From the IMG/VR virus record IMGVR_UViG_3300030117_003836, positions 1 to 56,056 of that record: a stretch of 56,056 nucleotides of DNA. One strand, given 5' to 3'. This stretch comes from a virus. A program made the position numbers and the translations under genes. The stretch's first letter is position 1, and each line of letters opens with the position of its first letter. This document shows positions 37,576 through 56,056 of the stretch, in pieces. The notes beneath the pieces were generated by a model. That model saw only the letters and a list, made by a program, of their open reading frames with translations. It searched no databases and had not been told where the DNA came from.

Positions 37576-37754
37576 CTTTTTCCCATTCTTTCTAGCATAT
37601 CGTCTTTAAAATCTTGCAATATAACTATAATTTTACCTATTAATTCGATATTTCTAGGTAAATATTCTGGATTATCTCCTTTAGCTTCCATTTTCTTTAT
37701 TAATTCAGCTAAAACAGTCAACTCATTTACTTCTTTTCTTGTTTTTCTAAACAT
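37572..37754 (-). CDS. Small helical protein at the end of the early operon
   Basis: The protein has 60 residues and is mostly helical and charged (K/E/R/L). It overlaps the nuclease gene at its start and meets the last rightward gene at its stop. The ribosome site AAAGGAG is good. Not recognised; it may be a small regulatory or nuclease-accessory protein. Confidence 0.55.
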   Translation of the reverse strand: MFRKTRKEVNELTVLAELIKKMEAKGDNPEYLPRNIELIGKIIVILQDFKDDMLERMGKS

Positions 37755-38113
37755 GGTATCTCCTTTATCAATTCAATAAATTCATTAAACTCAATTACAG
37801 CATATACTTTAGACCTGTTTTTCTTTATAACTAAAACAGGACTTCTATCTTCAGAATTTCCTTCACATTGTTCTAATGATTTCCAAAGATTTAATCGTTC
37901 AGTATTCTTGCATTCAAAACTGTAAGGAATAAACTTTTTTGCTAAAGGAGATAGCACAATATCTTCGCCTCCCATCCCCATAGTCTGTGATTTAATATCA
38001 TCATACTCTAGACTCGGAATCTTCGTCCATAGATCCACAAAGATATGTCTAAGTTTATCCCTTACTAAATTCTGTAAATTTCTACCCTTCGCTTTTGCGC
38101 TTTTTGGTTTCAT
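37727..38113 (-). CDS. PD-(D/E)XK nuclease, Holliday-resolvase-like
   Basis: The protein has 128 residues. An N-terminal helix 'AKGRNLQNLVRDKL' is followed by 'GMGGEDIVLSP' and, 14 residues on, 'SFECKN', giving the G-x-D...E-x-K core of PD-(D/E)XK nucleases. A later 'WKSLEQCEGN...PVLVIKKN' fits the usual Q-containing helix and last strand. Small phage enzymes of this form cut branched DNA during recombination or before packaging. It shares the operon with ERF recombinase and primase-helicase, which supports a recombination role. Confidence 0.75.
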   Translation of the reverse strand: MKPKSAKAKGRNLQNLVRDKLRHIFVDLWTKIPSLEYDDIKSQTMGMGGEDIVLSPLAKKFIPYSFECKNTERLNLWKSLEQCEGNSEDRSPVLVIKKNRSKVYAVIEFNEFIELIKEIPCLEKQEKK

Positions 38114-39264: not shown

Positions 39265-39549
39265 CTAATCAGTAACGTAAGTCACTGGCGTAACTAAACG
39301 ACCTGTGATCCGACACCTACGCTTCTGACATTCTTCAACAACTCCATTCTTTTTAAGTTCATTAACTCTACCTGATACGGCATTAATGTCGAATCCTGTA
39401 TATCTAGTTAATTCACGAAGGGTTATGCCAAAGTCTTTATCTTGATGTCCTATAGCATATACAAATGATTTAATATAATCACTTTGCGATACTACAGTTC
39501 CATCTTCATTAATTTGTTTATAAGCTAATTTAGATGTTGTTCTTGCCAT
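39265..39549 (-). CDS. Winged helix-turn-helix DNA-binding protein
   Basis: The protein has 94 residues with GAGGAGG upstream. 'GITLRELTRYTGFDINAVSGRVNELKKNGVVEE' is a classical winged-helix unit: helix, turn, recognition helix (AVSGRVNELKKNG) and wing ('RRCRITGRLVTPVTYV'). It is a likely transcription regulator of the early or late genes, or an origin-binding factor. Being in the middle of the early operon it could switch transcription to the late promoter. The target is unknown. Confidence 0.7.
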   Translation of the reverse strand: MARTTSKLAYKQINEDGTVVSQSDYIKSFVYAIGHQDKDFGITLRELTRYTGFDINAVSGRVNELKKNGVVEECQKRRCRITGRLVTPVTYVTD

Positions 39550-39725: not shown

Positions 39726-40032
39726 TTTTCTCTCCTGATTCTATCATTCCCCATAATATACATAAATATACTATAGCATCAGTTAATCTTCCTCTTACAT
39801 CTTCTCTTTGAGATGTGTGTCCTTTAATATGTGAAGCAATTCCATCTATATGCTTCATTAAATATATCCAAAGAACCATTTTTTGGTCTATACTTGTTTG
39901 ATTAGCTATTCTTTGAAAGTTAGCAAATACGTTATCTTCATCCATAGCATATTCTTTTTGTCCATTAGTATGCATATTTGTAACATGGTCAAAGATTGAA
40001 TCCATCAAAGCTAGCATTTGTTTATGTTTCAT
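39703..40032 (-). CDS. DUF1599/Nmad1-like protein
   Basis: The protein has 109 residues. 'QKEYAMDEDNVFANFQRIA' and 'VLWIYLMKHIDGIASHI' followed by 'VRGRLTDAIVYLCIL' match the all-helical phage family annotated DUF1599 or nucleotide modification-associated domain 1: E-Y-A...D-N-x-F-x-N-F, K-H, R-x-x-D-x-x-x-Y. These are related in style to MazG-type nucleotide-binding helical proteins. A role in nucleotide metabolism is therefore possible. It is coupled to the primase-helicase gene by overlap. Confidence 0.65.
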   Translation of the reverse strand: MKHKQMLALMDSIFDHVTNMHTNGQKEYAMDEDNVFANFQRIANQTSIDQKMVLWIYLMKHIDGIASHIKGHTSQREDVRGRLTDAIVYLCILWGMIESGEKNGKHTRK

Positions 40033-41780
40033 TTTTCTATCCTTACATTATTTACGTTTAATCTAACATTAAGAAATTCTTTCTCTCTGTTTTTATCACT
40101 TTTGACATGTATCATTTCTATAAGATTTGTTTCTTTATTTCTGTATGGTGCTAATGATAGTAATTTATTAGCATTATACGCTACACGAAATGAACCTCTA
40201 GATGATGATATGTCCATACCTTCTTTAAAAGCAGATTTACTTATTTCACTAACAGCAAACACAACTACGTTGTATTTTACTGCAAGTTCCATAAGAGCTT
40301 GAGAAGCTTCTTCAACTTTCATGTTATTATCTTGACGTTTACTTTTAAATAAGCCCATATGATCAACAACGACAAGTTCTGGTTTGTTTTCCATCATAGA
40401 TATTTTATTTTCTATATCACTAGGATATGGAGAAGAATAATCTACAGTAAGATAATCAAACTTATCTTCTTGTCCATTTTGCAATTGACTATAATGCTGT
40501 TCTAATTGTTCATGAGTCCATTTATTTTCTATCATAACAAATCTCGACCATATTTGCCTTGGTGACATTTCCATTTCTATAAAATATGTTGGCTTCTTTA
40601 ATGCAACTATCCAATTTTGCAATAACATTGTTTTCATACTAGCAGGTGGAGCTTGAATTATCACTACTTCACCTGGATATATAGGAAAGTCTTGTCCATA
40701 TAAAGCACCAATATTAATAGGCTGATGGTCTCTAGCATAGAAATCAATTAGTTCTTTTTCCATAGCTGAAGCATTCATTACTGTTTCAGTACGCAAACTC
40801 TTTCTACCTTTATGTAGTTTACATGTACTATCGCAATAAAACTTAATTATTGGGTCGTCCCAGCCATATGTATAGCCTTCACCACCGTGACCTTCATAAC
40901 AACCTTTTATAATATTAGCCATTTCTTCTTCTTTAAATGGGTGCATACCACTTACCTTTTGACGCCAATTTTCCATAATTAAATAAACAATATCCTTAGG
41001 AAATCTCCATCTTAGATATGCTGCTAATCTTAATGCAACCATATGACGCTTACCTCTTGGTGCACCTTCCATCATTTTTTGTATGCATGTGTGATGTTTA
41101 GTATCACCTACAACTTGAACTATTTCTTTTTGTTTTATTGTTTCTTTAACAGTAACGTCAAATACAGGTTTATCTACAGGATCTACAGGTTCTACTTCTT
41201 TTTGTTCTGATGCATAGTTTTCAATAAAGCTTTTAAAATCCTCTTCATCACAATTCATCATTTTATCAACAAAATCATCTTTTATCTGTACTTTAAATAA
41301 ACCAGACTTAGTATTCTTTGTGTTAACAATTCTAATAATTCTAGTTTTATCAGTAACAGAAGGGTCAGCAATATTAAATATTCCTTTTTCTGTTAGCTCT
41401 TTCTTTACTGTTATATGTAAATCTTTATGAGCTTCCCATTTAAATGTACTTTGATGTATGCCAACATGAAAACCAGTACCACTAAAATAAACTTTACTGG
41501 GAACATCTAGTTGTTTTAGGAGTATAAGTAAACCACCTAATTTATCTCTTGCGTCTAATGTATTCTCACCATCTACATCTAATATAAATTCTTCTGGTAT
41601 ATATATTTTACCATCAAAACCTGATAATGATTTATTATTAGCATAATAACTCTTTACATCTTCATCGTAATTATATAAAGAACAAAATGTATCATTCTCT
41701 ATACCCTGCCATTGTTCAGTATTATCTGCATCTTGAAAATGATGTCTATTTGATAATCCGAACGCAAACTCTTTAATCAT
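40029..41780 (-). CDS. AEP primase - DnaB-type helicase fusion
   Basis: The protein has 583 residues with AAGGAGG upstream. The N-terminal archaeo-eukaryotic primase domain has D68-x-D70 ('FILDVDGEN'), 'SGTGFH' (100-105) and 'DPSVTDKTRIIRI' (139-151). The middle (232-320) has C232, C294, C316 and C320, like a metal or Fe-S primase C-terminal domain. The C-terminal RecA-like helicase has 'YPGEVVIIQAPPASMKT' (368-384) and Walker B 'ELVVVDH' (468-474). Walker A is unusual: Met382 stands where Gly normally precedes Lys383. It makes primers and unwinds DNA at the phage fork. No phage DNA polymerase is seen, so it must work with a host polymerase. Confidence 0.8.
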   Translation of the reverse strand: MIKEFAFGLSNRHHFQDADNTEQWQGIENDTFCSLYNYDEDVKSYYANNKSLSGFDGKIYIPEEFILDVDGENTLDARDKLGGLLILLKQLDVPSKVYFSGTGFHVGIHQSTFKWEAHKDLHITVKKELTEKGIFNIADPSVTDKTRIIRIVNTKNTKSGLFKVQIKDDFVDKMMNCDEEDFKSFIENYASEQKEVEPVDPVDKPVFDVTVKETIKQKEIVQVVGDTKHHTCIQKMMEGAPRGKRHMVALRLAAYLRWRFPKDIVYLIMENWRQKVSGMHPFKEEEMANIIKGCYEGHGGEGYTYGWDDPIIKFYCDSTCKLHKGRKSLRTETVMNASAMEKELIDFYARDHQPINIGALYGQDFPIYPGEVVIIQAPPASMKTMLLQNWIVALKKPTYFIEMEMSPRQIWSRFVMIENKWTHEQLEQHYSQLQNGQEDKFDYLTVDYSSPYPSDIENKISMMENKPELVVVDHMGLFKSKRQDNNMKVEEASQALMELAVKYNVVVFAVSEISKSAFKEGMDISSSRGSFRVAYNANKLLSLAPYRNKETNLIEMIHVKSDKNREKEFLNVRLNVNNVRIEK

Positions 41781-41912: not shown

Positions 41913-42482
41913 TTAAAATGGTATTTCTTCTCCAGTCCCTGTTGAACTTGATTCGACATTTTGACTAACTGGTGTGGAGGATACAAAACTAGAGTCTCCC
42001 TCACTTGTATTATTTAATTTAGGCATTACAAAGTCATTATAGAATTTCTTTGCTTTAGCCTTCCAATATGTTACATCATCTTCAGTAAACTTCTCTGCAG
42101 CATTTTCAAATACTGTTGGTGCAAATTGCTTTAATATTCTACTATATTTACCATCTTTATATAGATATATATTAACTTGTTTACCAGCTAATAATGCTGG
42201 GTTATCATCCATTTTGATCACCATTTTACCATCTGTACCTTCTAATGCACTAGTAATACCTGCATTAGCAAATCTGAAGACTTGACCTACTGCCCATTCT
42301 TCACCATTACTAACCTTTTCATATATTCTAGCATTAAAGTTATCAGGATAGCCTTCAAACCACACATCAAGATATTTAGCGTCATTATATACACCAAATG
42401 CAGCTCTTGATATAGTTGCAGTTTTCCAACCAGACTCGTAGCTCATGCCACCGCCTTTATTTACTGTTATTGTTCTAGCCAT
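41913..42482 (-). CDS. Single-stranded DNA-binding-like protein
   Basis: The protein has 189 residues with AAAGGAG upstream. The N-terminal 115 residues are beta-rich with aromatic residues ('YLDVWFEGYPDNFNARIY'), as in OB-fold proteins. The last 45 residues are disordered S/T/G/E and end in 'GEEIPF', the acidic peptide with terminal Phe by which bacterial SSB proteins recruit partners (DDDIPF in E. coli). It lies between the ERF annealing gene and the primase-helicase, the right place for SSB. It overlaps ERF by 8 bases. Confidence 0.7.
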   Translation of the reverse strand: MARTITVNKGGGMSYESGWKTATISRAAFGVYNDAKYLDVWFEGYPDNFNARIYEKVSNGEEWAVGQVFRFANAGITSALEGTDGKMVIKMDDNPALLAGKQVNIYLYKDGKYSRILKQFAPTVFENAAEKFTEDDVTYWKAKAKKFYNDFVMPKLNNTSEGDSSFVSSTPVSQNVESSSTGTGEEIPF

Positions 42483-42945
42483 TCGTTACTCCTTTATTTT
42501 GAATTGAATTACCATCATCATCTGTTTGTGCAATACCTATCATAGCAGATAAAGAAAATCTTCTAGCATATGTTATTGTTGCACCTACAGCCTGAGCATC
42601 TTTTTTGCCACCAATAGGCATTTTTAACTTAGATTTAATCCATTGACCTGATTCATGTAATAACATAGTAGTTACATAAAAACTACCTCTATCACAGGTA
42701 TCATTTCCCTGTATTACGGATAAACCATTTTTAGTTAATTGTGGAAAGCATGATTTAATTACAGTATCTAAATCAGCATAATTTGATTTAAAGAATGGAT
42801 TAACACTACTTGCTAATGCACCTTTTATTTCAGATTGAGCTTTTGCTAATGCTGCAGCCAATTTGTCAATTTCAGGTGACATCCATTCATCTTTTCTTCT
42901 ATTTTGAGGGACAGAAGTTCCCTTAGGTTCTTGAATTTCTTCCAT
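42475..42945 (-). CDS. ERF-family single-strand annealing protein
   Basis: The protein has 156 residues with CAGGAGG upstream. 'IDKLAAALAKAQSEIKGALASSVNPFFKSNYADLDTVIK', 'LTKNGLSVIQ', 'LLHESGQWIKSKL' and 'QAVGATITYARRFSLSAMIGI' are the core of ERF (essential recombination function) proteins. These bind single strands and anneal homologous ends, as in P22. With the PD-(D/E)XK nuclease and SSB-like protein it forms a recombination set. It follows the conjugation cassette after a structured spacer. Confidence 0.85.
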   Translation of the reverse strand: MEEIQEPKGTSVPQNRRKDEWMSPEIDKLAAALAKAQSEIKGALASSVNPFFKSNYADLDTVIKSCFPQLTKNGLSVIQGNDTCDRGSFYVTTMLLHESGQWIKSKLKMPIGGKKDAQAVGATITYARRFSLSAMIGIAQTDDDGNSIQNKGVTNG

Positions 42946-43010: not shown

Positions 43011-43138
43011 TTATTTCGCAAGTATTAAAGAGATTGAACTTACTCGAATTACCGCGGTTAGACTTTCAACGATAGCTGCTTACCAAGTTCATGGGCCTTC
43101 TATCTTAATTCAATCTCTTTAAATTATTTAGCAAGTAT
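43011..43138 (-). repeat. 15-bp direct repeat flanking a 14-bp-stem RNA element at the end of the E1 gene
   Basis: TTATTTCGCAAGTAT (43011-43025) and TTATTTAGCAAGTAT (43124-43138) differ at one base. The right copy is the end of the E1 gene (ILAK-stop); the left copy would encode the same ILAK-stop with a synonymous change. Between them TTAAAGAGATTGAA (43025-43038) pairs perfectly with TTCAATCTCTTTAA (43109-43122) around about 70 branched bases. This looks like an inserted unit that duplicated the gene end. Confidence 0.6.
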
Positions 43139-43786
43139 CATTGTAGGAAAGTTGAATGAAAATTTCTTATCATAAGGCTGATTAGTTATTAACTTTCTCA
43201 CAGCATTACAGATAAAGCTACCACTCATATTACTACAATAACTTGTTGCTTTCATTGTACATGGCTCAGGATCAGAATCATGATCAGGATACCACGTAGT
43301 TAAGTATTGCCTTAATGTAGGTTTAGGCAATATATATTGTTGATAATGTTCTGCACCCATTCTGCCATCAATAATAGCAAATGGTTTTATTCTACTATTA
43401 GATATATGTGTCACTGCATCTAATCTAGATTGCATACTATCAAAACCAAGTATAATTATATCATTATGCTCAGTCATAGGACGATATTCATTTTGTTGTG
43501 GGAAATTACCAAAATATTTATCAACTGTTTTCTTACTTCCAGTGATATTTATAATATGATGATACAAACAATCTACTTTTCTTTTACCTACATCAGTCAT
43601 ATTATACTGACTAACACCTACATTTGGTTGCTCTACAACATCACCGTCATAAAGTGCAAAGTTTTCTGCTCCCATTCTCGCCAATTGTATGGCTGCGGAA
43701 CTTCCAATAGCTCCGCAACCAAGTATATGGTAAGAATAGTCGTTCATATTGTTAACTATATCACTGAATCTACTATTTCTTTCCAT
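43124..43786 (-). CDS. E1/ThiF-like Ubl-activating enzyme
   Basis: The protein has 220 residues with AAGGAGGAG upstream. The N-terminal nucleotide-binding motif G23-C-G25-A-I-G28 is followed by 'ALYDGDVVEQPNVGVSQYN' (D47, D49, N55, Q60), K70 and 'LGFDSMQSR' with D117. These are the ATP and magnesium residues of the ThiF/MoeB/E1 superfamily, which adenylate the C-terminal Gly of ubiquitin-like proteins. C177 ('EPCTMKATSYC') or C185 may form the thioester. The Arg usually present in N-L-x-R-Q is absent. It is single-domain, shorter than MoeB. It is the last gene of a Ubl-E2-JAB-E1 series, so it probably activates the 71-residue Ubl encoded upstream. Confidence 0.85.
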   Translation of the reverse strand: MERNSRFSDIVNNMNDYSYHILGCGAIGSSAAIQLARMGAENFALYDGDVVEQPNVGVSQYNMTDVGKRKVDCLYHHIINITGSKKTVDKYFGNFPQQNEYRPMTEHNDIIILGFDSMQSRLDAVTHISNSRIKPFAIIDGRMGAEHYQQYILPKPTLRQYLTTWYPDHDSDPEPCTMKATSYCSNMSGSFICNAVRKLITNQPYDKKFSFNFPTMILAK

Positions 43787-43795
43787 GTCTCCTCC

Positions 43796-44722
43796 TTATA
43801 TTCCATATGATTGATTATACATTTCGTAATCTAACAAAGAATCTGTTGGATCACAATCTTCATACCCTATTTCACAAGTTATAAAATCACTAGGTTCTAA
43901 ATGTAAGATTTCTTCAAAATTACATTGAGCTATTAAATTAACAGTCAATGGCATTTTTGAATTTTCTAATCTTCTATTTAAATCCTTTATTTTATTTGCG
44001 TACTTAGGATATTGATACTCTCCCATTACAAATCCATCGTTTATTTTTTGTACTTTTTCTATTAATTGAATCCATGCATTAGTAATTGTATTCTTTTTCA
44101 TGGTTTCACCTCTAAATAAACTAGTTTGATTTGGGTTAGGAACTGTAAAGTTTTTCACAACTCCATTTTCTGTAACACTTTTCCACTGAGTACCAGAATT
44201 ATACCAACTCTTTTGAGGTTGAGTACATTGTGCTTCAACTTCTTTTGCTATTTTCTTTGGTATTTTATACCCTTCTTCATCTCCTACAATTTCAAGCTCT
44301 ACATCTTCATGCATTGTAAAAGGTTTCCATACAGATACTCTACACTTATATTCTTCTTTTACGTTGACTACTAGAGCAAAGCTCAAGTCGCCATCTTCAT
44401 ATTCATCTATAGTGTTTGTATCAGTACCACTCCAAAATGCATTCATTTTAGCATGAGAATGCCACCAACAAAAGCGAATATTATCTTTCTTATACTTCAT
44501 AGCTGCTTTACTATAATATTGTGCTAATTCAGTTTTATCTAATTCACATAATGCTGATGATACTTCTTGCTTCATTATTACAGGATCAATAATTTGCCAA
44601 TCACCATCTTCATCTTGTCTAGTAACTGCCATACCACCTATTTCTGTACCCCATTTATCTGACGCACATCTAGCATAGTTAATTATTTTATCCCAATCCT
44701 TCTGTTCTATATATACTTTCAT
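43796..44722 (-). CDS. JAMM/JAB metalloprotease, deconjugase or Ubl-maturation enzyme
   Basis: The protein has 308 residues; its ATG overlaps the preceding stop behind GTAAGGAGG. The complete JAMM signature is present: E27 ('GTEIGGM'), H88-S-H90 and S98-G-T-D101, with exactly seven residues between H90 and S98. Such zinc isopeptidases remove ubiquitin-like proteins or trim their C-terminus. A further 180 residues have no known domain; they contain cysteines near 165, 275, 291 and 298 and may bind the Ubl or the neighbour proteins. Genetic context with Ubl, E2-like and E1 genes strongly supports action on the phage Ubl. Confidence 0.85.
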   Translation of the reverse strand: MKVYIEQKDWDKIINYARCASDKWGTEIGGMAVTRQDEDGDWQIIDPVIMKQEVSSALCELDKTELAQYYSKAAMKYKKDNIRFCWWHSHAKMNAFWSGTDTNTIDEYEDGDLSFALVVNVKEEYKCRVSVWKPFTMHEDVELEIVGDEEGYKIPKKIAKEVEAQCTQPQKSWYNSGTQWKSVTENGVVKNFTVPNPNQTSLFRGETMKKNTITNAWIQLIEKVQKINDGFVMGEYQYPKYANKIKDLNRRLENSKMPLTVNLIAQCNFEEILHLEPSDFITCEIGYEDCDPTDSLLDYEMYNQSYGI

Positions 44723-45993
44723 TATTGGTTCCTCCTTACCATTTGTAATGTAGCATGTTCTAATGCTTTTTGTTGTACCTCTTCAGGCGTTAGTTGTTTA
44801 GTTACACTTTTCCATGTATCGCAAGTTTCTTTTATTGTACAATACTTTATACAATAAGAATCTTCTTCTACATTTACTCCATCATTACTTAGCTGACGTA
44901 ATTCCGATCTATAATCGCAACGATTTGCATTTGTAGCCCCTTGAACATTAAAGAACTCTTCATTGTTTTCTAAGCAAGTTGGAATACCATGATATGTTTG
45001 AGTTATTCTATTCAAAGGCTGTGTATTAGTATCATAATGAGTCATTACTCTATCTATAAACAATTGCAATGATATAAAATCTAGTGATTGTATACATGCT
45101 TGAAACTCATCTTCCAAATTACCTACACACACATATTTAAAATTATAATGATGTTGATTACTATGATTATAGCTATTGTGATTTCTAGAAATATAAGGAT
45201 GTTCTATTCCCATATAACTATCCCAATTACCGCCAATAGTATAAGCACTATTTCTTGCATTGCTAGAAAATCTACTATTTCTTATATTCTTTATTTTAGT
45301 TAAATCATGTTTTGCCATAATAATACTATTTAATAGTTTGTTTAAAGAAAATCTAACAGAGATATAACCACGTCCAGGTATTTCTATCTCTGCTATTTCT
45401 TCATTACTATCAACATGCTTATATGATAGTTTGACATCTTGATAATTATATATAATATCTAGTTTATAATTACATAATTCATCATCATTATCAAATTCTT
45501 CATGTAAAGCCATTGTAAATTTATGATTAGAATTTTCATACTGTTCCATTAAATGATTATATAGTATATTCCAAGCTTCTATTACATCATCAGTATTGTC
45601 TTGCATTATTAAACCTTGTTGTCTAAAGTTTATTAATATATTTTCTATATTATATAATTCATTTTTAATACCTCTTAATCTCCAATTAGCATTATCTTGC
45701 ACTCGTTGTACAACTTTTTCTAATGAAGCTGCTTTTTTATGCATTTCACCTTGATACCATAGTATTTGTTTTATAGTATCATATGCACCTGGTTTCCAAT
45801 AAAACTTTTTAGTAATACCTAAGTTTTTAGTTGGTGCTTGTAAATAATAAGATCTATTTACGTGATTAGGTCCTTGAATATATTTATGATTAAATTCATC
45901 TATAAGTTCTAAAACTTCTGCCTGTGGACCTAATTGTACATTCTCTATCAAACGTGTTAAGTTTGGATTTAATTCGAATAAATTAGTTTGCAT
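44722..45993 (-). CDS. E2-like conjugating enzyme candidate with Cys-rich tail
   Basis: The protein has 423 residues with AAGGAG upstream. The N-terminal 165 residues are helical. From about 175, beta strands lead to 'MGIEHPYIS' (H265-P266) and, after an H/N/S-rich insert, 'YVCVGN' (C289), then 'LDFISLQLFIDRVMTHYDTNTQPL'. This order (HPx, Cys, helix, N-x-x-P-L) parallels the E2/UBC core HPN...C...P-N-x-x-x-P-L, with C289 as candidate catalytic Cys. The HP-to-Cys distance (24) is longer than usual. Five more cysteines (340, 359, 381, 385, 391) may bind zinc. Place between Ubl and JAB genes supports E2 function, but the fold needs confirmation. Confidence 0.6.
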   Translation of the reverse strand: MQTNLFELNPNLTRLIENVQLGPQAEVLELIDEFNHKYIQGPNHVNRSYYLQAPTKNLGITKKFYWKPGAYDTIKQILWYQGEMHKKAASLEKVVQRVQDNANWRLRGIKNELYNIENILINFRQQGLIMQDNTDDVIEAWNILYNHLMEQYENSNHKFTMALHEEFDNDDELCNYKLDIIYNYQDVKLSYKHVDSNEEIAEIEIPGRGYISVRFSLNKLLNSIIMAKHDLTKIKNIRNSRFSSNARNSAYTIGGNWDSYMGIEHPYISRNHNSYNHSNQHHYNFKYVCVGNLEDEFQACIQSLDFISLQLFIDRVMTHYDTNTQPLNRITQTYHGIPTCLENNEEFFNVQGATNANRCDYRSELRQLSNDGVNVEEDSYCIKYCTIKETCDTWKSVTKQLTPEEVQQKALEHATLQMVRRNQ

Positions 45994-46015
45994 TTGTATC
46001 TCTCCTTATTTAATA

Positions 46016-46059
46016 GATAGGGGGACTGTGAGTGTGAGGTGAGTTTCGCCCCCCGTATC
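46016..46059 (-). other. GC-rich hairpin between Ubl and E2-like genes
   Basis: GATAGGGGG (46016-46024) pairs with CCCCC-G-TATC (46050-46059), nine pairs with one bulged G, around a GT-rich loop. It follows the Ubl stop and precedes the ribosome site of the E2-like gene. It could protect or end the short Ubl message so that Ubl is made in excess over the enzymes. No U-run follows. Confidence 0.45.
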
Positions 46060-46072
46060 TTGTTAGAACTAT

Positions 46073-46288
46073 TTACTGACAACCACCAGATTTATTATTC
46101 TGTACAGCTGCCACTACGGAACCATCAGTAAGCTCATGTGTATCCGCCACATTAGTACCATTTACTGCTATATCAGCATTAGAACTGATTTCTAATTCAG
46201 CTCTTAATTGAGCCACAGTTAATGATGTTACTTCTTTGTCAACGAATCCACCACCCGCTAACCATCTTATTGTTCTTGTGTTTGCCAT
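46073..46288 (-). CDS. Ubiquitin-like (beta-grasp, ThiS/MoaD-type) protein
   Basis: The protein has 71 residues with a strong AAAGGAGG. The pattern is a beta hairpin ('TIRWLAGGGFVDKEV'), a helix ('TVAQLRAELEI'), then 'IAVNGTNVADTHELTDGSVVAAVQ' and a C-terminal tail 'NNKSGGCQ'. V-N-G...L-x-D-G-x-V...GG is the signature of ThiS/MoaD and small ubiquitin-like modifiers, whose last Gly is adenylated by an E1. Here G68-G69 are followed by Cys-Gln, so a JAMM enzyme may have to remove two residues first. E1, JAMM and E2-like genes follow directly. Confidence 0.8.
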   Translation of the reverse strand: MANTRTIRWLAGGGFVDKEVTSLTVAQLRAELEISSNADIAVNGTNVADTHELTDGSVVAAVQNNKSGGCQ

Positions 46289-46310: not shown

Positions 46311-46466
46311 CTATCTCCATTTTTCGGCTGCGTCTACGTAGCAATCCTCAGCATATTCAGCCAGTTTTTCTAAATTAAGATTATTTTCTCTGGTATCTTT
46401 TAATTTCATAGTATATGATTTCATAGTACCAGTTTTATCTAATCTCCATACTTTTACTTTTAACAT
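46311..46466 (-). CDS. 51-residue basic protein upstream of the Ubl gene
   Basis: This short frame starts at ATG 46466, overlapping the end of the 175-residue gene, and stops 23 bases before the Ubl start. It begins 'MLKVKVWRLDKTGTMKSYTMKLKD', a beta hairpin, followed by a helical 'LEKLAEYAEDCYVDAAEKWR'. The beta-helix layout is slightly like a small phage modulator. Good overlap and ribosome context (GGAGGATTTACT) support a real gene. Function unknown; its closeness to the Ubl gene is notable. Confidence 0.6.
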   Translation of the reverse strand: MLKVKVWRLDKTGTMKSYTMKLKDTRENNLNLEKLAEYAEDCYVDAAEKWR

Positions 46467-46987
46467 ATAGTAAATCCTCCTGATTCTTTGCAGAATAATG
46501 CAAATCTTTCTACATTATCTTTACTAAATGGATAACTAGCCATGAATTTCACATCTTTATCATCGCTTTTTTCCATTTTAGCTCTTTGTTTTTCATAATC
46601 TTTACTATATCTATCAACAGTTCCATCTTCAATTAAATCCATTAATCTATCAGCTATGTCAATAGATTTCTTTTCATTAATTTTGCGTCCATCATTATAT
46701 GAACCAGAAGTCATTTCTTTTTCTGTTAATATATCATCACAATGTTCACATACAAATTCCCATAATGGGCGCCACCACCATACATTATTACGAAAATATA
46801 TACCAGGATTATCGTCATGATATTTATCCATTTGCTCCCAGTATTTAGTCCTATCTTCTTTACTAAGTTGATCTTGCATTTCCCACCTTTGTTTCCAATC
46901 CTGAATAGATTCTATCATGCCATATACACTAGTATCATCCAGTTTTACATTCATTTTAGGGTTTAACCCTGATAAATCAAATCCCAT
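46460..46987 (-). CDS. Conserved phage protein of the GFDLxGLNP type
   Basis: The protein has 175 residues. It starts 'MGFDLSGLNPK' and contains 'PGIYFRNNVWWWRPLWEFVCEHCDDIL', a combination seen in many phage early-region proteins of unknown function. The C-terminal half is helical and ends near 'KESGGFTIC'. Cysteines at about 80, 83, 167 and 175 might bind zinc. Its ATG overlaps the previous small gene by 11 bases. I recognise the family pattern but know no proven role. Confidence 0.6.
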   Translation of the reverse strand: MGFDLSGLNPKMNVKLDDTSVYGMIESIQDWKQRWEMQDQLSKEDRTKYWEQMDKYHDDNPGIYFRNNVWWWRPLWEFVCEHCDDILTEKEMTSGSYNDGRKINEKKSIDIADRLMDLIEDGTVDRYSKDYEKQRAKMEKSDDKDVKFMASYPFSKDNVERFALFCKESGGFTIC

Positions 46988-54217: not shown

Positions 54218-56056
54218 TGGCTAAAAAAATAACTAAAGAAGTACAAAGAATACATGATTTATTTGAAATTGCTAATGGAGAAAATAGAGCTCAATGGGAA
54301 TATATCAATCAAAAAGGTGTAGACTTTGCTAACGATAATCAATTAACAGATGAAGAGAGGGTTACATTAGAAGAACAAGGAATGCCCACCTTCACAATAA
54401 ACCGCATATTGCCTGTAGTAGAAATGTTAAATTTTTACGCCACAGCAAACAAACCTAGATGGCAAGCTGTTGGAGTTGATGGTAGTGATACTGATGTTGC
54501 TGCTGTATTTTCCGACATGGCTGATTATATATGGGACTTGTCTGATGGATCCTCTCTTTACGCTAATTGTGTAAATGATTCTGTTACTAAAGGAGTAGGG
54601 TATATGCATGTTACTGTAGACCAAGACTCTGATAATGGAATGGGTGATGTAGTTATTAAACAGCCAGAACCATTTGATTTATTTGTAGACCCTAAGTCTA
54701 GAGATTTATTGTTTAGAGACGCTTCATTTGTTATGATAAGAAAAATATTACCTAAGTCACATTTGTTAAAAATATATCCTGATTTAGCATCTAAAATTAA
54801 AAAATCTGCTAGTTTAAATGATAATGATTATAATTATTCAGAAAAATCTAGAGATAAATATATGAAAGATTTTGGATATAAAGATGTTGATACAGATGAA
54901 AGCCCAGATAAAGATGGAGCTAGAGATGACGTAGTAGAATTTTTTGAAACTTATGAAAAAATTAAAATTAAATATGTAAATGTATTTTATCAACAACCAT
55001 TAACTAAAGAAGTATTGCAACAAATACAGCAACAAGTAAAAGTTCAAATGCAGGAAATGGCTTCTGAATTACAAGTTAAAGCTTTAGAACAGCAAAAATC
55101 TATGGAGGCAGCTGTTCAATCTGGAGAAATGATTCCAGAAAGATTTCAATTAGAAATGCAAAAAATGCAAGAAGGAATGCAACAACAATTAGCTCAAGCA
55201 GAACAGCAAATGACTGCTGAATTACAACAGCAAGCTACTATTATTCAAAATATGGTAATTACAGAAAAAGAATTTAAAGTAATATCTCAAGATAAAAAGT
55301 TTGCAGCAACTATAGTAGATGCTGTTCCTTTTCATGGAGATAGAATACAATTATGTTGCAGCACTGGTGATACAATGTTATATAAAAAAATATTACCAGA
55401 AGGAATTACAGAATACCCTATAGTACCATTTCATTATAAGTGGACAGGAACTCCTTATCCAATAAGTGCAGTTTCTCCATTAATGGGTAAACAAAGAGAA
55501 GTAAATAAAGCTCATCAATTATTAGTTCATAATGCTTCATTAGGTAGTTCATTAAGATTTGTACACGAAGAAGGTTCTATTGATACGGATTATTGGGAAA
55601 AGTATTCAAGTGCTCCAGGAGCTTTATTACCTGTAAGACCTGGATCAACTCCTCCAACACCAATACAACCTGCTCCATTAAATAGTGCATTTTTTAATAT
55701 TGTTCAAAACTCTAAATCTGATATGGAATATTTAGCAGGTATATATTCTTCTATGATGGGAGATACAGGCTCTCAACATGAAACTTATAGAGGTATGTTA
55801 GCCATGGATGAATATGGTACAAGAAGAATTAAACAGTGGATGCAAAATGCTTTAGAACCTGCATTAAAACAAATGGGAACTATTATAAAACAATTTACAC
55901 AATCTGTTTATACTGCTCAAAAAACTTTTAGAATTGTTCAACCAAGTGCATTACAAGAGCAAAGGCAAGTTGAAATTAATATACCTGTTTACAATGATTT
56001 AGGAGAAGCAGTAGGTAAGATAAAGGATTATAGTGCTGCAAAATTTGATGTAAGAA
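54217..56056 (+). CDS. Portal protein, N-terminal part (continues at base 1)
   Basis: The gene starts at ATG 54217 after AAGGCAAG and is open to the window end, continuing in frame at 1-560 for a total of about 766 residues. 'MPTFTINRILPVVEMLNFYATANKPRW' and 'QPEPFDLFVDPKSRD' with 'KGVGYMHV' are typical of P22-like portals. A Q/M/E-rich coiled insert (about 270-345) precedes 'GITEYPIVPFHYKWTGTPYPISAVSPLMGKQREVNKAHQLL'. It forms the dodecameric DNA gate. It directly follows TerL and the broken small ORF. Confidence 0.9.
   Translation, partial: MAKKITKEVQRIHDLFEIANGENRAQWEYINQKGVDFANDNQLTDEERVTLEEQGMPTFTINRILPVVEMLNFYATANKPRWQAVGVDGSDTDVAAVFSDMADYIWDLSDGSSLYANCVNDSVTKGVGYMHVTVDQDSDNGMGDVVIKQPEPFDLFVDPKSRDLLFRDASFVMIRKILPKSHLLKIYPDLASKIKKSASLNDNDYNYSEKSRDKYMKDFGYKDVDTDESPDKDGARDDVVEFFETYEKIKIKYVNVFYQQPLTKEVLQQIQQQVKVQMQEMASELQVKALEQQKSMEAAVQSGEMIPERFQLEMQKMQEGMQQQLAQAEQQMTAELQQQATIIQNMVITEKEFKVISQDKKFAATIVDAVPFHGDRIQLCCSTGDTMLYKKILPEGITEYPIVPFHYKWTGTPYPISAVSPLMGKQREVNKAHQLLVHNASLGSSLRFVHEEGSIDTDYWEKYSSAPGALLPVRPGSTPPTPIQPAPLNSAFFNIVQNSKSDMEYLAGIYSSMMGDTGSQHETYRGMLAMDEYGTRRIKQWMQNALEPALKQMGTIIKQFTQSVYTAQKTFRIVQPSALQEQRQVEINIPVYNDLGEAVGKIKDYSAAKFDVR
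55959..56056. repeat. Terminal redundancy, right copy
   Basis: This 98-base stretch is identical to bases 2-99 and overlaps the portal coding region. It shows that the sequence closes into a circle of about 55.96 kb; physical ends of the packaged DNA cannot be told from it. Confidence 0.9.

Follow-up and report, generated by a model that had tools for sequence, protein, structure and literature searches.

In bacteria, the conjugation of ubiquitin-like proteins (Ubls) has been treated until now chiefly as a tool of plasmids or of defense against phages. Bacterial operons that bring together genes for a Ubl, a JAB protein, an E1-like protein, and an E2-like protein were described by Iyer et al. 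2006 (row 6d; PMC1779556), and the only phage examples given there are the Ubl-JAB pair of the lambda/T1 tail. Here, we analyzed the IMG/VR virus record IMGVR_UViG_3300030117_003836 over its whole length of 56,056 nucleotides (the window). An initial annotation, made from the letters alone, had read four consecutive leftward open reading frames (ORFs) at 43124-46288 as a Ubl/E2-like/JAMM protease/E1 cassette. The coordinates and the minus strand were confirmed, this reading of the cassette is supported, and the cassette is real, conserved, and no artefact. We propose, with a probability of roughly 0.4, that several distant phage lineages, cultured crAss-like gut phages and Flavobacterium phages among them, keep a complete Ubl conjugation system as a stable part of their replication modules, where it would reversibly tag proteins of replication and recombination. 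The four genes are as follows, in order of transcription.

46073-46288, minus strand: Ubl, ThiS/MoaD-like, 71 amino acids (aa); ThiS match; C-terminus NKSGG followed by a CQ tail
44722-45993, minus strand: E2-like candidate, 423 aa; invariant P266 (in HPY) and C289; AlphaFold2 model
43796-44722, minus strand: JAB/JAMM metalloprotease, 308 aa; Prok-JAB match; JAMM residues intact
43124-43786, minus strand: E1/ThiF-type adenylating enzyme, 220 aa; ThiF match; motif residues

In IMG/VR, relatives of the E1 were found at 385 places and relatives of the JAB protein at 347. Among the related loci, 56 were non-redundant and had sufficient upstream sequence. The genes for the E2-like protein, JAB, and E1 lie on one strand in all 56 loci; a Ubl was detected in 55 of them, and the 56th (L044) holds a divergent Ubl with the C-terminus VKGGY, so that all four genes are present in 56/56 loci. 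The order Ubl, E2-like, JAB, E1 is kept in 55 loci, while one locus has the Ubl gene after the E2-like gene. In a control search anchored on the DnaB-type helicase and not on the cassette, 15 of the 19 loci with sufficient upstream sequence had all four genes and 4 had none, with no partial sets; searches by alignment for E1 and JAB over the whole records lacking the cassette found neither. In a tree built from 51 helicase rows, all nine rows without the cassette fall into one clade (100/100), and a single loss or absence of the whole block therefore explains the pattern; frequent gain and loss of the cassette was rejected on the same evidence. Together, the all-or-none sets and the single block absence argue for the cassette being a functional unit that is inherited vertically. 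There is no support for a recent origin from plasmids or hosts, as a scan of bacterial genomes matched only generic ThiF proteins and E1 matches on plasmids were weak.

Beyond these close relatives, the E1 matches proteins of crAss-like phages and of Flavobacterium psychrophilum phages at 26-30% identity; in tblastn searches of the phage collection, the E2-like and JAB proteins gave nothing, and E1 alone reached the crAss and Fpv phages. The same four-gene order is found in the cultured gut phage crAss001 (gp79-gp76), Fpv3 (gp55-gp52), DAC15, cr128_1, and Dulem virus 41, as a gene for a Ubl-domain protein, a gene for a protein of 370-445 aa, JAB, and E1. The carriers of this second group are Crassvirales, Flavobacterium psychrophilum phages, and environmental relatives, including viruses from rodent and lemur faeces, and each of the 62 non-redundant loci (62/62) has all four genes in this order, a few with a split or duplicate call. 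Neighboring genes in this group encode DNA primase, uracil-DNA glycosylase, and exonuclease. In the crAss001 record, the cassette genes carry no annotation beyond thiamine biosynthesis, metalloprotease, or hypothetical protein. A comparison of profiles between the two groups supports that the E1s are homologous (99.8%), as are the JABs (96%), with a weaker result for the Ubls (78%). The conserved co-occurrence predicted in the initial annotation thus holds strongly, in 56/56 loci of the window's own group and in 62/62 of a distant one.

Two further features of the crAss-type loci were observed. The N-terminal Ubl domain mostly ends in KSG and is followed by ~40-200 more residues (L066:2295-2972 and equivalents); this extended protein could be either a precursor for cleavage by JAB or a Ubl-tagged protein itself. 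In addition, a conserved gene overlaps or abuts the E1 stop codon and precedes the uracil-DNA glycosylase gene (L066:6705-7517, with equivalents in L067, L068, L228, and L229), and its product could be a fifth component.

The assignment of the 220-aa protein as a ThiF/E1-type adenylating enzyme stands, with a Pfam ThiF match at an E value of 5e-16 and the GCGAIGS loop, D47-x-D49, N55, K70, D116, and C176 conserved in 49 of 49 window-type relatives. The candidate catalytic cysteine, C176, sits in a PC[TN]xKAT motif, and the equivalent cysteine is present in 62/62 E1s of the crAss group. Structures reached by the E1 profile include UBA6, UBA5, MccB, ThiF, and BubCD. For the 308-aa protein, we obtained matches to Prok-JAB (E value, 2e-4) and to the PADLOC JAB model (E value, 7e-8), and its profile matches an Rpn11-like structure (E value, 1.4e-6). 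All five of the JAMM residues named earlier are present, and the catalytic set E27, H88-x-H90-x7-S98-x2-D101 is invariant in 46/46 relatives. The Ubl matches ThiS at an E value of 2e-4, with a score of 22.2 bits that is slightly below the Pfam cut-off of 22.5, and ThiS is also matched by 14 of 27 of its relatives. Of the earlier description of a beta-grasp protein with a C-terminal GG, the GG is borne out by its relatives: the putative beta-grasp part ends in GG in 80/80 unique relatives and in the divergent Ubl of L044 as the 81st (81/81). The number of residues after this GG is mostly 0-3, with a few unique relatives having up to about 31 or longer tails.

The 423-aa protein carries H265-P266, C289, and P326-L327, so the HP...C...P-L order that had been described is indeed present. 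Within the window-type family, P266 and C289 are each invariant (74/74), while H265 is found in 46/74 and G291 in 55/74 proteins; P326, N328, and G336 follow C289. In the crAss-type protein of 370-445 aa, C198 is the sole conserved cysteine (62/62), preceded by an invariant H182 and followed by G200. Thus, the invariant cysteine follows a conserved H or HP in both groups and usually lies within C-x-G. The invariance of the JAB set, of P266 and C289, and of the Ubl GG among relatives shows that the named residues are not there by chance.

AlphaFold modeling of the 423-aa protein from the single sequence gave a predicted local distance difference test (pLDDT) score of 33 and was not usable; an alignment-based AlphaFold2 run gave a pLDDT of 90.1 and a predicted template modeling (pTM) score of 0.84. 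The order of elements in this model (helix, four strands, HP, Cys, and helices) is that of the ubiquitin-conjugating (UBC) fold, and the model departs from UBC in having a further helix inserted between strands 3 and 4, as well as additional parts at the N- and C-termini. In a fold search of the PDB, Ubc9 was the sole E2 match and was non-significant (E value, 3-5; TM score, 0.28-0.35 by target). Of the proposed UBC fold, the confident model and its element order therefore speak in favor, whereas the non-significant Ubc9 match and the lack of an E2 match by sequence do not. We consider with moderate confidence that the 423-aa protein is an E2.

The fold search of viral proteins with the same model returned A0A1B0WLX5 (420 aa; probability, 1.00), a crAss-like protein (probability, 0.99), and a 435-aa protein of cr128_1 (probability, 0.44). 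These proteins fit the same gene slot, and by its length A0A1B0WLX5 is putatively Fpv3 gp54. That search also showed that the window protein is identical to UniProt A0A516M3P8, i.e., the sequence had already been deposited, nameless; the family is not recognized by Pfam, NCBIfam, PHROGs, or PADLOC. At its C-terminus, the 423-aa protein has a cluster of four cysteines, C359/C381/C385/C391 (C-x21-C-x3-C-x5-C), which is present in most window-type proteins and possibly binds zinc or an iron-sulfur center. The cluster is absent from the crAss-type proteins, and it was therefore rejected as a universal active center.

The cassette is found, as had been stated, inside a phage replication operon close to genes for ERF and an SSB-like protein. 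Leftward from the Ubl, E2-like, JAB, and E1 genes, the order continues with ERF, the single-stranded DNA-binding (SSB)-like protein, and the DnaB-type helicase.

42475-42945, minus strand: ERF single-stranded DNA-annealing protein; Pfam ERF, E value 9e-25; in 27/56 loci
41913-42482, minus strand: SSB-like acidic-tailed protein; in 40/56 loci; no Pfam match
40029-41780, minus strand: primase/DnaB-type replicative helicase; DnaB_C, E value 1e-11; PHROG DnaB-like, E value 3e-24

The JAB start codon and the stop of the E2-like gene overlap by 1 base, and 9 bases separate the JAB stop from the E1 start, as in a co-translated operon. The two ends of the window have a 98-bp direct repeat in common (2-99 and 55959-56056), and this direct terminal repeat indicates that the window covers in full a phage genome of ~55.96 kb; IMG/VR does not class the record as complete despite the repeat. 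Terminase and head genes are present in the genome. Directly upstream of the Ubl gene lie genes for two small proteins, of 51 aa and 175 aa (46311-46987), and the family of the 175-aa protein is found in 19/56 loci. Downstream of the replication block are genes for a phage PDDEXK endonuclease (E value, 2e-8) and a small MarR/winged-helix-like protein (37727-38113 and 39265-39549). In most of the relatives that lack the cassette, the slot before ERF holds a pair of genes for proteins of 140-144 aa and 339-375 aa without a Pfam family (L364:4036-5554; likewise L357, L358, L369, L372, and L376). This pair was never seen in loci with the cassette, and it may stand in functionally for the cassette without being related to it.

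The family matches, the intact motifs, the invariant GG, the invariant cysteines, and the fixed gene sets support a conjugation function, and it is likely that the cassette encodes a reversible Ubl conjugation pathway that uses all three enzymes. Within it, the activation and deconjugation core is well supported, and the E2 is probable. Because the tails after the GG are variable, we infer that JAB would trim the Ubl to its terminal GG. By its family and conservation, the E1 would then adenylate the Ubl C-terminus and hold the Ubl as a thioester on Cys176, from where the Ubl would be handed to the E2-like protein at Cys289, which would attach it to target proteins; JAB could later remove it from them. 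The likeliest targets would be proteins of phage DNA replication and recombination. This assignment is the weakest step and a tentative one. It is favored because the cassette is embedded in a replication block in every lineage observed and is vertically stable, and, based on this gene context, we favor replication targets over host-defense targets at odds that are near even. If correct, phage tagging would be comparable in logic to the modification of PCNA or Rad52 in eukaryotes.

Several observations weigh against the proposed pathway. The E1 does not have the Arg normally found in the NLxRQ motif and reads NVGVSQ in the window type and NMSGQ in the crAss group; this is unusual for an adenylating E1, although another conserved Arg could substitute. 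For the 423-aa protein, neither E2 homology by sequence nor a significant PDB fold match was detected. The similarity between the two E2-like families in hhalign is non-significant, although the best local alignment in this comparison pairs C289 with C198. Finally, neither an E3 nor a Ubl receptor was found.

Conjugation could also be aimed at the host, by early tagging or de-tagging of defense, transcription, or nuclease proteins, or by JAB and the Ubl countering conjugation of the Bil/CBASS type. We consider this somewhat unlikely. The family is phage-restricted, given that bacterial genomes yielded only generic ThiF proteins, and related bacterial systems act in anti-phage defense (PMC10097602 and PMC11354881), so that a counter-system is plausible. 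However, the cassette is located in the replication block and not in a variable region. Anti-defense genes usually turn over fast, whereas the cassette has been stably inherited by vertical descent, the block being absent only once.

Alternatively, E1 and JAB could form a two-enzyme system with the 423-aa protein as its substrate or scaffold and not an E2, or the genes could encode an MccB-like adenylation pathway modifying a peptide; we consider both improbable. Such readings would fit a protein for which E2 homology and a significant fold match are both lacking, and the better PDB matches obtained with the E1 profile include MccB. They sit poorly with the single invariant cysteine in each group and its similar H-x(n)-C setting, with the invariant GG of the Ubl, and with the conserved JAMM isopeptidase, for which a peptide pathway has no need. 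More improbable still is a sulfur-carrier pathway, in which the E1 would thiocarboxylate the ThiS/MoaD-like Ubl and the 423-aa protein would accept sulfur as a TtuA-like protein or cofactor synthase, possibly via its four-cysteine cluster: the Ubl does match ThiS and the E1 ThiF, most window-type 423-aa proteins have the cluster, and bacterial ThiS-ThiF-JAB sets serve sulfur transfer (PMC1779556), but the crAss-type protein has kept one cysteine and not the cluster, the SGGxD(S/T) PP-loop is absent from both E2-like families, and no rhodanese, desulfurase, or thiolase was present among the proteins scanned (part of the ORFs).

The reading as a conjugation pathway was also compared with the described systems, three of which (Bil, CBASS Cap2/Cap3, and PRTRC) the initial annotation had named as related. 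The row 6d operons (PMC1779556) and PRTRC-type loci likewise have a stand-alone Ubl, JAB, E1-like, and E2-like protein in one operon; the former differ in an extra alpha-helical protein and in that their JAB carries a separate N-terminal domain, whereas the present set is phage-borne, and the NCBIfam models for the latter score far below cut-off here (PRTRC_A, 12.7 bits against 101.8; PRTRC_ThiF, 24.9 against 144.75). Bil (BilABCD) likewise combines a Ubl, an E2, a JAMM protease, and an E1 in one operon (PMC11354881). However, BilA contains two Ubl domains, and BilD contains two adenylation domains (PMC11354881), compared to a single Ubl of 71 aa and a single E1 of 220 aa here, and the CEHH motif of BilB (C, E+6, H+8, H+13) is not found in the 423-aa protein, in which C289 is followed by CVGNLEDEFQACIQ with no conserved His. 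CBASS Cap2/Cap3 also pairs a JAB with the chemistry of E1 and E2 and has a similar E1 domain, but Cap2 is an E2-E1 fusion that acts on a cGAS-like enzyme, whereas the window has separate genes and a dedicated Ubl; a nucleotidyltransferase as in type II CBASS is absent from the scanned operon proteins. The lambda/T1 proteins TAPI and TAPK are likewise a phage-encoded Ubl with a JAB (PMC1779556), but they are encoded by tail-assembly genes without E1 or E2, whereas the window has both in a replication block. Membership in Bil, CBASS, PRTRC, or the lambda tail pair was therefore rejected, as the defining features tested failed; of the relatedness to Bil, CBASS, and PRTRC, the functional analogy stands and membership does not.

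The closest likeness is to the Steigviridae crAss-like phages and Fipvunavirus Fpv3, which have the same order near replication genes and homologous E1 and JAB proteins. Their E2-like proteins have the H...C-x-G motif in common with the window protein, with similarity undetectable by sequence, and their Ubls have a long C-terminal extension after KSG, compared to the two-residue CQ tail in the window. In open-access full text, with subscription papers and preprints outside the scope, we found no account of a cassette of this kind in the replication modules of phages. A conserved, vertically inherited cassette at this position would show that phages themselves use Ubl tagging, and laboratory hosts are on record for crAss001, DAC15, and Fpv3, which makes the question directly testable. 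We judge the cassette to be a phage-specific, probable Ubl conjugation set that is distinct from Bil, CBASS, PRTRC, and the lambda tail Ubl.

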